A stretch of DNA of 64,000 nt from Limnohabitans curvus (GTDB lineage Bacteria > Pseudomonadota > Gammaproteobacteria > Burkholderiales > Burkholderiaceae_C). The stretch covers positions 558,001 to 622,000 of the forward strand of contig NZ_NESP01000001.1 in the NCBI RefSeq assembly GCF_003063475.1, read 5' to 3'. The notes below the pieces were generated by a model. It saw nothing but the letters and a program-made list of their open reading frames with translations. It had not been told where the DNA came from and did not search any database. Numbering within the stretch: position 1 is the stretch's first letter; every line of letters begins with the position of its first letter. A program made the position numbers and the translations under genes. This document shows positions 1 to 6,041 of this stretch, piece after piece.

Positions 1-2987
1 AGCAGGTCGATGTCTGGGTCGAATGGATCCACAACAGTCATATGGGCCTGCGCACGGACCCTCACGGCTTCCATCGCCCACGGCAAGTTGTAAACGAATG
101 CATGCTCGATGAGGGATATCGCATCGTCGGCGTCGTCATCCCCCAACTCGTGAACTGGCGCTCCCCTCAGCCATTGATCCAGAAACTTTCGCCAATCTAG
201 CGGCAACGACTTCGGCTTGAACGGGGAGATTTCGAAGGCAATCTCGGCGAAAGCGATGATCGCCTTCACAGCTTCATCGGCTTTACCGCCGTCTACAGCG
301 GTATTCGCCATGAGCAACAAGAACTCAAGCTCATCGGCCTTCTCATCCAGCATTCTCCCCGTTTCAAACCCGACGCCGGCGAGGAAATAACCGCGCCGTT
401 GCGCCGCAGTGGAAACGGTCCAGATCAACTTCGCTCTGGCCTTCAAGCCAGAAAGCAGCGCCCTTTGAACACCTTCACTCTGTCGCGCGAGCCGGCGCAT
501 CAGCAGCGATGACGTTAGCACCTCATCAATCTTTGACTCGAGATCTTCATCAGCAACTTGCGCGTCTCCAAGCAAGCTGAATATGGCAGTGTCCAGGCTG
601 GTGAGATGTCGCGGCCAGTCCTCAACCGCGGCGTCTGCTAATCTTTTTCGCTCCCCGGGCAACGCCGCAAAGCTCCACGCGCCCTGACCTGCCACATACG
701 TAAGCAAGGAATCGACGTCCCTGGTCCCAAGCTTCCTGGCCATGCGATCCAGTAGCCAGTAAAGCAGTCGGAAGATTCCGCTCTCCATCTCACGTTGTTT
801 GTCGCCGCGGATCAGACGCTTCCAGGCATCTCGCCGCTTCTCGTGCTCGTCGAACATCGGGTAGAGCACCAACCCTTCGATGTCGACATACGCGCGGCCA
901 GCGCGACCGACGACATTTCGGAACTCGGACTCATCGATCGCCTCACCGTGCCTGGAATGCCCGTGAAAGATGAGGCTGGTGGCCGCCAAGTTGAGCCCCT
1001 GGGCGAGGGTCGGTGACGACACCGTGAGCTTCAAAATGCCTTCCCTGAGTAAGTGCTCCACTTCCTTGCGGAACTGGGTTGGCAACTCGCCATGGTGGAC
1101 AGCCACGCCCATGCGAAGGCACTTCAAGATATCGTGATCCGAGCCGAACCACTCAGCACCGACGGCCAATGCGGACGCGATAGCGTCGGCCGGAGGCATC
1201 ATGATCGGCGGGAGCAGACCCCCTTGGCTTAGCTTGATGATGCGGTTGGCGAACGGCATAACCGACACGCGAATCGGGCAGAATACAAGCACAGACTGAC
1301 CATCTTCAATCAGACGCCACGCCGTAAAAATGCACAGGTCGGTCTGCGATCCGGGGACGATAGCAGCGTTTGCACGATTGGACGTCCTCTTTCCGACGAC
1401 AAACTTGGGAATGAACGGATGCTCGTCCCCAACCACCACGTTCAGCTGCGCGACCTTGGTCTCTTGGTTCCAGTCAACCTCACCAAATCGAAGCCGAGTC
1501 GGGCGCCAACCGTTCTTGATCAGGCCGTCGGGCCGGTCGGCGGTGAGCCACGCGGTGAAGTCAGCGAGTTGGTCACCATCAGGCAGGATGGCGGAAAGGC
1601 AGACGATGCGCCGGGAAGCTGCGTCAGGCCTTCGAAGCAGCCGCTGAATCTGTGCTTCGTAGCGTACCTCGCGCTCGCCGAGCCCGATCATGTGGCCTTC
1701 GTCGAGGACCACCAACCCCACGTTGTCCAAGAGCGTCGGGTCGGCCCGAAGGGCGAAATCGAGCTTCTCGGGCGTCGACACCACGATGTCGCGCGACCTG
1801 AGCGTGTCGACATCGCTACTACTGGCACCAATGCTGCCATAGAGGCTTGAGACGCTTTTGCCGAGCGCGCTAAACGTGCGGCGCAGCGAGACCTCTGTTT
1901 GTGCGGACAGCGCACGCAAAGGCGTGACGAAAACGACTCGCTTGCCTGCCGCCACGCACGCGAGGATGCACAGCTCTGCGATGCGCGTCTTTCCCGCGCT
2001 TGTGGGCAGTGACAGCACAAGATTGGCGTCGTACTCCAGCACACGCTTTGCCGCTTCAATTTGGGACGGCCAGAGCTCAATCTCCGACCGACCTCGGCAA
2101 AGCAGTGAGGTGATGAACAGTTTTCGCAACGATGCCCAATCGCCGATGACTGCACCATCAGGGCCGGACATGGGCAGGATCGCGTGAAAGCTGCTCGACC
2201 AGAGGCTGTCAACGATGTAAAGCGCCAAGCGATGAACCCACCACTGGCTGACGAAGTTCATGTCCCCTGCAACGGAGAGACCCTGCCTGAGACGCGCCTG
2301 TGCTTCGCCGATGAGATGCTGTTCGCCCCGCTCCAGAGCGAGCAGCGTCTGAGACATTGCCGACATGAAGTTGCCTTCTAAGCCAAGCATGAGGGCCTCA
2401 GCTATACCTTCGCCGTCTTCCAGAGACGCCCCCTGACCGTCTACTTCGAAACGGGGATCCAGCGCGCCAACGATGTTTTCGTCGGAACCCGCGCCCGACT
2501 CAAACCAGCCAGCGACTGCGCGGTTTACCCCAGCAAGATCCCGCAGCACCAGTTGTGCGAGGCATCGCTCAGTAACCGACAGGTTGGCCTGCTCGAAGTC
2601 AGCCCTGAGGAGTGAGTACGCGCGCGCCGAGAACCGCCCCAGGTGGTAGGCGCTTCCTGCAACTAGACGGTGGAAGTCTCGCGTCTCGTCCAACTGCCCT
2701 CGCGCGACGACCGCCTCGATCGACTCCGCCGCAATCTCGAAGGCTTGGCGCGCAGTCTCAAAGTCGCCGCCCAGATCCAGATACCGCAGGCCATGGAGTA
2801 GCAGAGAGTAGCCGAACGAGAGAAGGTCTTCCGAAAGGAGCGGGCTGAAATTCGGCGCATCTATAGGCAGTTCCCCCGTGCGCCAAATCATGCCGCGCGC
2901 CTGTCCCCTGGCCAGCAACTGTTGACGGTAACCCGCCCCAACCGCTTCACGAATGTTGGAGCGCAGTTCCTCCAATGTCGATGCCAT
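1..2987 (-). CDS. hamB: HamB, Hachiman antiphage helicase (partial, runs off left edge)
   Basis: This superfamily 2 helicase is the large partner of the Hachiman defence pair. At least 995 codons stay open to the window edge, so the C-terminus is missing. Residues 1 to about 300 are a helical region without a motif I recognise. The helicase core follows: a Walker A-like LPTSAGKT near residues 327-334, a DEGH box at 429-432, motif III-like SAILPD at 465-470, and motif VI NVVGRAGRA at 691-699. The order and spacing suit Ski2-like/DEAH helicases. The ATG overlaps the hamA stop by one base (TGATG), so the two genes are translationally coupled. In characterised Hachiman systems HamB senses damaged or invading DNA and restrains or releases the HamA nuclease. 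Assignment to Hachiman rests on the hamA-hamB pairing; a lone helicase of this type would be ambiguous. Confidence 0.85.
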   Translation of the reverse strand, partial: MASTLEELRSNIREAVGAGYRQQLLARGQARGMIWRTGELPIDAPNFSPLLSEDLLSFGYSLLLHGLRYLDLGGDFETARQAFEIAAESIEAVVARGQLDETRDFHRLVAGSAYHLGRFSARAYSLLRADFEQANLSVTERCLAQLVLRDLAGVNRAVAGWFESGAGSDENIVGALDPRFEVDGQGASLEDGEGIAEALMLGLEGNFMSAMSQTLLALERGEQHLIGEAQARLRQGLSVAGDMNFVSQWWVHRLALYIVDSLWSSSFHAILPMSGPDGAVIGDWASLRKLFITSLLCRGRSEIELWPSQIEAAKRVLEYDANLVLSLPTSAGKTRIAELCILACVAAGKRVVFVTPLRALSAQTEVSLRRTFSALGKSVSSLYGSIGASSSDVDTLRSRDIVVSTPEKLDFALRADPTLLDNVGLVVLDEGHMIGLGEREVRYEAQIQRLLRRPDAASRRIVCLSAILPDGDQLADFTAWLTADRPDGLIKNGWRPTRLRFGEVDWNQETKVAQLNVVVGDEHPFIPKFVVGKRTSNRANAAIVPGSQTDLCIFTAWRLIEDGQSVLVFCPIRVSVMPFANRIIKLSQGGLLPPIMMPPADAIASALAVGAEWFGSDHDILKCLRMGVAVHHGELPTQFRKEVEHLLREGILKLTVSSPTLAQGLNLAATSLIFHGHSRHGEAIDESEFRNVVGRAGRAYVDIEGLVLYPMFDEHEKRRDAWKRLIRGDKQREMESGIFRLLYWLLDRMARKLGTRDVDSLLTYVAGQGAWSFAALPGERKRLADAAVEDWPRHLTSLDTAIFSLLGDAQVADEDLESKIDEVLTSSLLMRRLARQSEGVQRALLSGLKARAKLIWTVSTAAQRRGYFLAGVGFETGRMLDEKADELEFLLLMANTAVDGGKADEAVKAIIAFAEIAFEISPFKPKSLPLDWRKFLDQWLRGAPVHELGDDDADDAISLIEHAFVYNLPWAMEAVRVRAQAHMTVVDPFDPDIDL

Positions 2988-3751
2988 CAGGCCCCCGCGG
3001 CCGCGAAGACGGCTTTGATGAACTTCTGATGCTCAGCGACCCGTAGCCCGACATAGTGCTGGACCGAGCCCCCGGCATAGCCGCTCAAGTTGGATTGCAA
3101 CAGAGTGGTCGTGTCGTTGCCCGTGAAGGCGAATAGCATGTGCGTAACATCGCTGGGCTTCAGCGACTTCTTCAACTGGGCGTCGTCGATTGCGTCCCGC
3201 AAGGGCTTGTCAGCAGGGTTTGTCAGCCGGTCTGCAACGAATCCCATTGAATGAGGCGACGGCAGCTCGCCATAGCCAGACAGCGCCTCTCGTGCCTTCG
3301 CGACGGTGGCAGCAGGCATGGTTGCATTGCTCTTGGACTCCGCCTTCAGCAAAGTGAGCTTGCCGGTCACGGGGTTCAAGTTAAAACCCAACATGTCGTC
3401 GCCCCGCATCGACATGTTTCGGTGGTCTTTGAACTGAAGACGGTTGATGCCCAGCGTAAACGGCGTCTTCTCACGGACGAAAGTAGTGCACAACACCTCG
3501 CCGAGATCGCCAGACTTGAGCTGCGCGCTTTCCGGCAGCCTGTTCTTAATTAACTCCGCAACTTCGTGCCGCTGCAGGCGAGCGAACATCTCGGCCAGCC
3601 GGCTTGGCGGCAAAAAATGATCTGGCATCACATCTGCCATGATGGCGACCGACGCATCAAACTTCGATGCATCTGCGGTCAGCATCGTGTGGCTATGCGG
3701 CGCACTGCACCCAACAACGACCTCCGTGCACCATTCGGCGAAACGCGTCAT
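2987..3751 (-). CDS. hamA: HamA, DUF1837 nuclease-like protein of Hachiman
   Basis: This 254-residue protein matches the DUF1837 family that defines HamA. A PD-(D/E)xK-type active site can be traced: GEV with E85, RGDD with D118/D119 inside RGDDMLGFN, and the E-x-K signature AESKS giving E138 and K140. From memory, mutational work on a characterised HamA also used a Glu/Lys pair at about this place. The start is supported by an AAGGAT-like ribosome site 8-10 bases upstream. HamA is the effector that degrades DNA once HamB senses phage or damaged DNA, leading to abortive infection. The gene sits directly upstream of hamB with a one-base overlap. The catalytic triad looks intact, so the system is probably functional if hamB is complete outside the window. 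Confidence 0.88.
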   Translation of the reverse strand: MTRFAEWCTEVVVGCSAPHSHTMLTADASKFDASVAIMADVMPDHFLPPSRLAEMFARLQRHEVAELIKNRLPESAQLKSGDLGEVLCTTFVREKTPFTLGINRLQFKDHRNMSMRGDDMLGFNLNPVTGKLTLLKAESKSNATMPAATVAKAREALSGYGELPSPHSMGFVADRLTNPADKPLRDAIDDAQLKKSLKPSDVTHMLFAFTGNDTTTLLQSNLSGYAGGSVQHYVGLRVAEHQKFIKAVFAAAGA

Positions 3752-4104
3752 GCGATATATCCTTCAACTACGGAACATACTCACACCCGCGCGGCCAGCT
3801 AGACCGATCTCAGCGCGGATGAACTATGACGGCGGGGCCCATGCCACCGCTCAGAGGGGCTAAGGGAACCATTTATAACCTACCAGAAGTCCGGGACTTC
3901 GGACTCAGCTTCGCAGTTTGGATGCAATGCTGCTCAGCATGGTGGTCCTGCCGGCCAACGGCACCTTGCTGCCCCCCTTGGGAATCCAGGACCCGGCCAG
4001 AAGCGGACGATTCTCAGGCGGAGAAACGGCAGTTCAGTGCTCGAGCAAAGCGGGACTCGGTGGCCTGCCCTTGGCGCGCCGCTTGAGCGAGTTTGGCTTT
4101 ACCG
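3752..4104. other. Intergenic region between nuclease gene and hamA
   Basis: I see no convincing gene here; the short open frames lack homology or coding character. On the minus strand it must hold the hamA promoter and the end of the nuclease transcript. A TATAAAT-like -10 box (3871-3877, minus strand) lies about 120 bases before the hamA start, next to a 15-bp palindrome listed separately. The stretch at 3960-4090 is GC-rich and unassigned. Confidence 0.5.
3886..3900. promoter_or_regulatory. Palindrome upstream of hamA, possible operator
   Basis: A perfect inverted repeat, GAAGTCC-G-GGACTTC, lies just upstream of a TATAAAT-like box read on the minus strand toward hamA. Its position near the expected -35 region suits a repressor or activator site. 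No regulator gene is visible in the window, so the role is inferred only from placement. Confidence 0.3.
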
Positions 4105-5061
4105 CTAGACGACCCGAAGGAACGGCTGTTTTGCAACAACAGCAGCTTGCGACTTTTTTCGAAGCAAGGCGAGTAGATCGGCTTCGTTTTGCAGAAGCAT
4201 AACAATTTCCTGTAGCGAACAAAGAAACATCGTTCGCTGGTTCAGAGCATTCGCACATTCCTTAAGTACAGGCTGTGTGAAATCGCTGTTTGAGATGAAT
4301 ATCCCACTTGCACTGGCTCTACCAAAAAGCCGTACTAAATGCGGCGAGAAGTCTGCAATACCCACCGGATCTTTCAGCCACTTCATTTCGACAAGATGGA
4401 TGGTGCCATCCAAGACGATAACGCCGTCGATCTGTTCAAGAACGGTGCTTGAATCGGGGTCTCGTCTCTTGAAGTCCTCGTGCACTAGTACGCCGTAGGC
4501 GCGAAACAGACCATTGAGCACAAGTTCGAGTTGTTTTCCACGTACCTGTGGCTTATCGTCCATCGCAAACAGCGCGAAAAGCTGGTCTCGTAGTTCCCCT
4601 ATCGCCTTTTTGCGCGAGAGAGCAGCAGCACGCGCTACCTGCGCAGCCGCAAGCGCTTCTGACTTCTCGTTGTCGCGCTCCTGTTTCATGCGCGTAAACG
4701 AGTCTTTGACATTTACGATGCGGCGTACCTCTGAGACGGCGCCCTTTGCCTTAAGTTGATCCTCGGGCCAACAAGATGTGAAGTCTTCGAACTCCACCAC
4801 TCGTTTGATGACCTCACGGCGAGGTGCGAGTGTGGAATCACCTCGGGCATTCAATCCCTCGATCACCGTTCGAGCAATCTGATACTTGTTTAACGACTTT
4901 GCATCAGCTCGAAGCTGATCTACGAGAGGCTTCAGGAGATTTTCTGGTGAGCCCGCACCTCTGAAAAAAACGATGACATCGTTCTTGCTTCTGCAGAGAA
5001 GAGGAACAGTGTCGACCAGAAGGGATAGAAGCTCTGGGGGATAGTGATACGCGTCGGCCAT
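4105..5061 (-). CDS. Mrr-like PD-(D/E)xK restriction endonuclease-like protein
   Basis: This 318-residue protein has three parts. Residues 1-120 form an N-terminal domain I cannot name (it begins with a YHYPPELL motif). Residues 122-160 are a charged, Ala/Glu/Lys-rich helix, likely a coiled coil. Residues 172-290 form an Mrr_cat-like nuclease core. The nuclease signature is visible: E179 in GKQLE, D212 in EQIDGV, and E225-x-K227 in LVEMKW. Such proteins cut modified or foreign DNA. The gene lies in the same orientation as hamAB but is separated by 353 bases, so it is likely its own unit within a defence-rich island. A weak ribosome site precedes the ATG. It could be a type IV restriction enzyme or an effector of an unrelated defence module; the N-terminal domain would decide. 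Confidence 0.7.
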   Translation of the reverse strand: MADAYHYPPELLSLLVDTVPLLCRSKNDVIVFFRGAGSPENLLKPLVDQLRADAKSLNKYQIARTVIEGLNARGDSTLAPRREVIKRVVEFEDFTSCWPEDQLKAKGAVSEVRRIVNVKDSFTRMKQERDNEKSEALAAAQVARAAALSRKKAIGELRDQLFALFAMDDKPQVRGKQLELVLNGLFRAYGVLVHEDFKRRDPDSSTVLEQIDGVIVLDGTIHLVEMKWLKDPVGIADFSPHLVRLFGRASASGIFISNSDFTQPVLKECANALNQRTMFLCSLQEIVMLLQNEADLLALLRKKSQAAVVAKQPFLRVV

Positions 5062-5630: not shown

Positions 5631-5704
5631 AAAAAGGGGGACAGAGAAAGTTCTGTCCCCCGTGTATGGTGGAGCTGGCGGGATTTGAACCCGCGTCCAC
5701 AAGC
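5505..5704. repeat. Three direct copies of GTCCACAAGC, the third inside tmRNA
   Basis: The 10-mer GTCCACAAGC occurs at 5505-5514, 5580-5589 and 5695-5704. The last copy is part of the tmRNA 3' domain, just before the T-arm. Repeats beside a tmRNA attachment site may be remnants of earlier insertions or integrase arm sites, but they may also be chance. Confidence 0.5.
5631..5661 (-). terminator. Rho-independent terminator of ssrA
   Basis: Read on the minus strand, a perfect 10-bp stem (GGGGGACAGA / TCTGTCCCCC) with a six-base loop is followed by TTTTTC. It begins 6 bases after the CCA end of tmRNA, so it terminates that transcript. Confidence 0.9.
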
Positions 5705-6041
5705 CTTTTTCGTACAGTTCTACATGTGTAGTCGTCTGATTTGAGTCTCGCCGTGTGCGTCGCGCAGCGACACGCTACGCACCCAGCCAGTACCCTTTTT
5801 TCTCACACCACCTCAAGGTACCCGAGGTGATGCCAGCCCATATGTTTTCCCTTGCAGCTAGGAAGTCTTGCGACCCCCTAACCCAGCCTATCGGCCAACT
5901 GTTGCAAGGCTCACCGGATTAAGCGGCGAGTGCGAAACGTTCGTCGTTTGCAGTTAGTTTTTTTTCCGAAGATTAACGAGGATCAGAACCTCGACATGCC
6001 CTGCCACGCGTCCGAACCCATGTCGAAACCAGTGCAGCCCC
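5667..6041 (-). ncRNA. ssrA: tmRNA (ssrA), tag ANDERFALAA
   Basis: Transfer-messenger RNA rescues stalled ribosomes with SmpB. The 5' end GGGGCTG pairs with CAGCTCC near the 3' end to form the acceptor stem, and CCA is encoded (3' end at 5667). The T-arm sequence GGTTCAAATCC is present. The tag frame at 5919-5951 reads ANDERFALAA followed by TAA, with GCA as resume codon. Length is about 375 nt, normal for a one-piece betaproteobacterial tmRNA. The 5' end lies only 12 bases past the stop codon of gph. tmRNA 3' ends are frequent integration sites, which fits the defence genes beyond it. Confidence 0.97.

Follow-up and report, generated by a model that had tools for sequence, protein, structure and literature searches.

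We analysed a 64,000-nucleotide stretch of the Limnohabitans curvus genome (3.03 Mb, two contigs) that covers positions 558001-622000 of contig NZ_NESP01000001.1, called the window below. Its left end carries a gene pair, hamA and hamB, that is an ordinary Hachiman defence system, a further member of a family with an already known mechanism. Based on profile matches, sequence alignments to solved structures and gene order, we consider it very probable that the pair makes up a complete type I Hachiman system, and we infer its activity from this membership. The parts of the unit, given in window coordinates, are:

2987..3751, minus strand: hamA, 254 amino acids, encoding a DUF1837/PF08878 nuclease with E85, D119, K136, E138 and K140.
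1..2987, minus strand: hamB, of whose 1172 codons the first 995 lie in the window; another 531 bases reach beyond the left edge as far as a TGA at contig position 557469.
2985..2989, minus strand: TGATG junction, read directly in the sequence, in which the hamA stop and the hamB start share one base.
3752..3941, minus strand: hamA leader, about 190 bp, at whose end (3941) the DNA similarity to each of the three nearest relatives (L031-L033) stops.

A first-pass annotation of this DNA had named the gene pair as Hachiman and had described the product of 2987-3751 as a DUF1837-like protein. Hidden Markov model searches for DUF1837/HamA matched this protein with both PADLOC (HamA profile PDLC00159, E 8.9e-86) and Pfam, in which PF08878 is the sole domain found (47.6 bits against a cut-off of 25). 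In a sequence search of the PDB, HamA residues 1-250 of 254 aligned to chain A of 8vx9 (E 2.6e-48), and E138 and K140 lined up with the residue pair that is alanine in 8vxy. The D-E(X)K nuclease motif is kept as D119, E138 and K140. To place these residues among relatives, we aligned HamA of the window with the matches from 80 fetched loci, one of which (L057) holds a stop sign in its matched stretch. E85, D119, K136, E138 and K140 were invariant in 81 of 81 sequences. The first-pass annotation had listed E85, D118, D119, E138 and K140, and we found all five where it had placed them. Its D118/D119 pair is present as described, but only D119 is invariant; position 118 is D in 58 sequences and E in 23.

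The partner gene had been described as a helicase gene that overlaps hamA by one base and runs out of the window, and the sequence bears out each of these points. The overlap is the TGATG junction listed above. We took the left flank from the same genome and looked there for a premature stop; the frame stays open through 1172 amino acids, with no internal stop, and ends in a normal TGA. The PADLOC HamB profile PDLC00174 matched with E 0 in a scan of the 995 residues inside the window, and residues 2-1171 of the 1172 in full-length HamB aligned to chain B of 8vx9 with E 0. All three helicase motifs named earlier were located, with Walker A (SAGKT) starting at residue 330, DEGH at 429 and GRAGR at 694, and D429 of DEGH lines up with D431 of 8vx9 chain B. 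In Escherichia coli ECOR31, the substitutions E138A,K140A in HamA or D431A in HamB abolish Hachiman defence, according to the passages cited here from PMC12278908. That E138, K140 and the DEGH aspartate D429 of the window align with these defence-essential residues supports the Hachiman reading. Taken together, the locus has a DUF1837 hamA, an adjacent full-length superfamily 2 (SF2) hamB, and both the nuclease and the helicase motifs, the features by which a type I system is recognized, and the first-pass identification stands on PADLOC, Pfam, the PDB alignments and gene order.

Three observations weigh against this identification. The PF08878 score of HamA is modest, probably because its lineage lies far from the Pfam seed. 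An NCBIfam scan returned no family for HamA, and no HamA was found in the three same-genus genomes of our family sample (G080, G184 and G260). A HamA relative is present in 7 of the 299 genomes of this sample, own genome included; given this count and its absence from all three same-genus genomes, we regard hamAB as patchily distributed. The genome under study has one copy of PF08878, whereas 14 control genomes have none.

We used the nearest relatives to set the edges of the unit. A contig scan returned 271 stretches that encode a HamA relative, and the best 80, which we fetched, are the basis of all locus counts given here. A HamB frame lies downstream on the same strand in 79 of the 80 hamA loci (the exception is L056), although in pieces in L038, L052 and L058. 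An in-frame hamB start falls within -30 to +1 bases of the hamA stop in 78 of 79 loci, by a loose test that chance would often pass. The closest HamA relatives are those of Aquabacterium terrae (L031, 94% identity), Rhodocyclus gracilis (L032, 89%) and UBA5582 (L033, 89%), and the corresponding DNA modules are 92%, 87% and 86% identical to that of the window. DNA similarity begins at contig position 557427 for L031, 557344 for L032 and 557410 for L033, and in each case runs through 561941. The module shared with these relatives therefore consists of hamA, hamB, about 190 bp before hamA and about 40-125 bp after hamB. Because similarity to all three ends at the same base, 3941, we assign the leader to the conserved module, and window 3752..3941 is the probable promoter region of hamA. 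The only flanking DNA that we found in common with these relatives is a short stretch beyond hamB in L031 and L032.

By homology to the ECOR31 system, HamB, a Ski2-like SF2 helicase, would patrol DNA while keeping the nuclease HamA in check. When HamB met damaged or phage-remodelled DNA, its ATP-driven movement would free HamA, and the freed nuclease would then destroy phage and host DNA and so end the infection. The survey of DNA by HamB with restraint of HamA, the release on damaged DNA and the destruction of DNA in the cell are described for ECOR31 HamAB in the cited passages of PMC12278908; complex formation, damage sensing and DNA destruction by the window proteins are, by this likeness, the expected behaviour. 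The window adds one intact member to a family of known mechanism, and the comparison with relatives sets the edges of its working unit as two genes and a short leader.

The alternatives to this account turn on the genes on either side of hamAB, which are:

Contig 554134-557337 (L003 2134-5337): Tn3-family element of 3204 bp with one transposase gene (DDE_Tnp_Tn3, E 8e-100).
L002 10613-12060, plus strand: AbiEi-AbiEii pair (PADLOC, E 9.7e-82 and 7.4e-104), about 5.4 kb left of the hamB stop.
Window 4105..5061, minus strand: Mrr-like PD-(D/E)XK protein of 318 amino acids, the neighbour of hamAB.
Window 5667..6041, minus strand: ssrA, the transfer-messenger RNA (tmRNA) gene, on whose 3' end the variable block described below borders.

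These surroundings might suggest a decaying, silent copy, as the block around hamAB is a mosaic that includes a transposon and genes resembling insertion sequences (some of these names were read from translations). However, both hamAB frames are open at full length, and the catalytic motifs and the overlapping junction are kept, and we regard decay as very improbable. The left flank raises the further idea that the Tn3-family transposon next to Hachiman, or else a neighbouring prophage, carries it as cargo. The transposon end is separated from the hamB stop by 131 bp and from the window by 663 bp. Farther left lie a tautomerase, a MarR-type regulator, a weak DUF2971 match, AbiEi-AbiEii and a prophage, whose phage-type genes start about 9 kb farther left (a D5-type primase and a gpA terminase are among those tested). 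Against this, the element is closed on its own 106-nucleotide terminal inverted repeats (94% complementary) with a 5-bp GTATT duplication on both sides, and Hachiman lies outside it; on this ground we reject carriage as transposon cargo. Moreover, L031 has a 50-bp stretch shortly after hamB, and L032 a similar one, whose counterpart in the window genome is found beyond the transposon. Because this post-hamB stretch lies past the transposon, we conclude that the element jumped into the 3' flank of the Hachiman module. HamA of the window had no match in 50,697 phage records at E 1e-5, which counts against phage carriage, and an IMG/VR pattern scan for HamA gave one distant match (32%) among the matches listed. 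We give cargo status, by either route, almost no credence.

The right neighbour offers a different alternative, in which the Mrr-like nuclease (4105-5061) acts together with the pair as a three-gene Mrr-HamA-HamB system. It is the next gene upstream of hamA and on the same strand. Moreover, 17 of the 80 loci, all in another HamA lineage, have a Mrr-like gene just 11-18 bp ahead of hamA in the same orientation, and the linked proteins of L087 and L095 match the family of the window protein over nearly its whole length, N-terminal part included. However, homology to the other 15 of the 17 linked proteins is confined to the nuclease half, and the 353-bp gap between the Mrr-like gene and hamA is far from the roughly 20 bp of the tight arrangement. 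The conserved DNA module stops at 3941, before it reaches the Mrr-like gene, and we saw no Mrr-like frame in the stretches fetched for L031-L033. HamA of the window falls in a 21-row tree group in which no other locus has a tight Mrr gene, and the four Mrr-like relatives closest to it in the family sample (L023-L026, two of them identical) lack any match to HamA or HamB in the roughly 1.5 kb to either side of them. A three-gene system in the window is on this evidence distinctly unlikely. Because of the gap and the lack of a Mrr-like frame in the three nearest relatives, we treat the Mrr-like gene as an independent neighbour that is probably not part of the Hachiman system, which leaves a two-gene type I Hachiman as the preferred reading of the locus.

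The family of the Mrr-like protein is large: of 8000 candidates scored, 2384 proteins reach E <=1e-3. Its Pfam Mrr_cat score of 16.8 lies under the cut-off of 21, and PADLOC names nothing. A predicted model (mean predicted local distance difference test score, pLDDT, 88.9; predicted template modelling score, pTM, 0.60) has a helical N-terminal half followed by a helix, three strands, a helix, a strand, a helix and a strand, an order that, as far as the model goes, we take to be the one expected for a PD-(D/E)XK nuclease. D212, E225 and K227 are invariant in 32 aligned sequences. A Mrr-like match was present in 9 of the 299 family genomes, own genome included; in one of these, Thiomonas delicata (G032; L019, L103), the Mrr-like gene lies just upstream of hamA and is alike only in its nuclease half. 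HamA and HamB were not found near the full-length Mrr-like relatives L113-L115. An IMG/VR pattern scan for the Mrr-like gene gave 5 pattern matches, none confirmed, and a plasmid DNA search with hamA and the Mrr-like gene gave one match, in Polaromonas, to the hamA part only.

We then considered the HamA lineage in which the Mrr-like gene is tightly linked. The 17 tight loci (L079, L085-L088, L092-L098, L101-L103, L105 and L109) yield 12 different HamA sequences, as one sequence is found five times and another twice. In five of the 80 fetched loci the upstream part is shorter than 1 kb, which leaves little chance of seeing the linkage, so that 75 rows were judged. In a test of frames of at least 100 amino acids that end near hamA, no other upstream family recurred in more than two loci. 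Of the linked Mrr-like proteins, all 8 that were scanned passed Pfam Mrr_cat (30.4 to 48.6 bits, cut-off 21), while PADLOC gave weak matches only (best E 5e-4). The E-x-K pair is kept in the 12 that were aligned, and the HamA catalytic residues are kept in all. All 17 loci fall inside a 43-row group of the HamA tree that excludes the window (98% support in the Shimodaira-Hasegawa-like approximate likelihood ratio test, SH-aLRT). Mapped on this quick tree, the Mrr label requires 6 changes, 4 of them forced by well-supported branches, against a mean of 15.4 for shuffled labels. AbiEi and AbiEii relatives stand just before the Mrr-like gene in 10 of the 17 loci, and in L100 and L108 the AbiE pair stands directly before hamA, without Mrr. 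Ten plasmid records carry a homologue 80-90% identical to the Mrr-like protein of L092; in the nine such records among the matches listed, HamA lies, by coordinates, at most about 25 bp downstream, and the annotation was read for two.

We tentatively propose, at somewhat less than even weight, that one HamA lineage is a separate Hachiman subtype with a Mrr-like PD-(D/E)XK nuclease as its regular third operon gene, often in the order AbiEi-AbiEii-Mrr-HamA-HamB, and that the looser pairing in the window arose as an independent approach. Several results argue against such a subtype. A Mrr-like homologue (under 60% identity) was found in 1383 plasmid records, compared with 60 that carry HamA, and the wider Mrr-like family is therefore mostly independent of Hachiman. 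Among 398 genomes of the phylum, a Mrr-like match was present in 30 and PF08878 in 16; both occur only in the own genome and in G391, and the tight arrangement only in G391. In the Klebsiella and Polaromonas plasmid loci that we inspected, no gene immediately before hamA is annotated as a restriction endonuclease, and the Mrr label has been lost and gained several times on the HamA tree. The Mrr-HamAB arrangement is not described in the titles and abstract openings of the Hachiman papers listed by our searches. If the tight Mrr-HamAB loci do act as one system, Hachiman would gain an accessory nuclease beyond those we found described. We also note a Mrr-like remnant in L080 (Xanthomonas hortorum), from about 525 bp upstream of the hamA match onwards, with a frame that runs on into hamA; this Mrr frame is without the nuclease core, and the locus does not look like a working Mrr-HamA fusion.

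On a larger scale, hamAB lies in a variable block that we place next to ssrA because similarity to three same-genus genomes starts at the ssrA 3' end. In G080, of the same genus, about 74 kb (contig 489,815-563,665) is replaced by 146 bp beside the tmRNA 3' end, and the DNA left of the tmRNA gene resembles the DNA that ends at contig position 489,814 in the window genome. The block contains type VI secretion gene pieces, metal and copper genes, insertion sequences, a serine recombinase and a prophage (several of these names were read from translations), and it also carries AbiE, the Tn3-family element, Hachiman and the Mrr-like gene. We searched for an attachment-site repeat that would mark a single integrative element at ssrA. 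No word of at least 13 bases taken from the final 60 bases of the tmRNA gene recurs in the surrounding 92-kb stretch, and a 334-base query across the tmRNA 3' end matched the rest of the genome only weakly and over short lengths (best 29 bases at 86%). A single integrative element is thus not established, and as no attachment-site repeat was found we speak of a variable block and not of a defined element. An 18-base direct repeat, GGAAGCGGTCGGTKGCGC, occurs in exactly two copies genome-wide, at contig positions 554070 and 563168 (L003 2070 and 11168), and these copies flank the Tn3-hamB-hamA-Mrr segment. We had considered them as module ends and dropped the idea, as the stretches fetched for L031-L033 contain no copy upstream of hamA, and L033 has none at all. 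Separately, ARAGORN prints a 26-residue tmRNA tag that looks wrong, because the sequence contains GCAAACGACGAACGTTTCGCACTCGCCGCTTAA, which reads ANDERFALAA.

Finally, we compared the window system with known Hachiman systems. Type II Hachiman consists of hamA, hamB and HamC (DUF3223), as described in the portion of PMC8565338 cited here. The window shares hamA and hamB with it, and no DUF3223 was found among the scanned neighbours, namely the gene upstream of hamA (weak Mrr_cat only) and eight genes farther left. In HamMAB, according to the cited portion of PMC12799240, a protease is fused to HamA, the HamA active site is lost in virtually all cases, and the added nuclease, HamM, is of the metallo-beta-lactamase type; other HamA fusions are mentioned there, in supplementary figures. 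The window has in common with HamMAB an added nuclease gene beside HamAB, but this neighbour is Mrr-like and not a metallo-beta-lactamase, and the window HamA is unfused, with 254 amino acids, one Pfam domain and an intact motif. The Hachiman systems of Aquabacterium terrae, Rhodocyclus gracilis and UBA5582 differ from the window system in that no Mrr-like frame was seen in their fetched stretches. Another of the closest known systems is E. coli ECOR31 HamAB (PDB 8vx9, 8vxa, 8vxc and 8vxy), which likewise comprises two genes for a HamA nuclease and a HamB Ski2-like helicase. The two systems align at near full length and share the catalytic positions E138, K140 and the DEGH aspartate; they differ in host and in the length of HamA (254 amino acids in the window, 259 in ECOR31), and the window HamAB, unlike that of ECOR31, is found beside ssrA and a Mrr-like gene.

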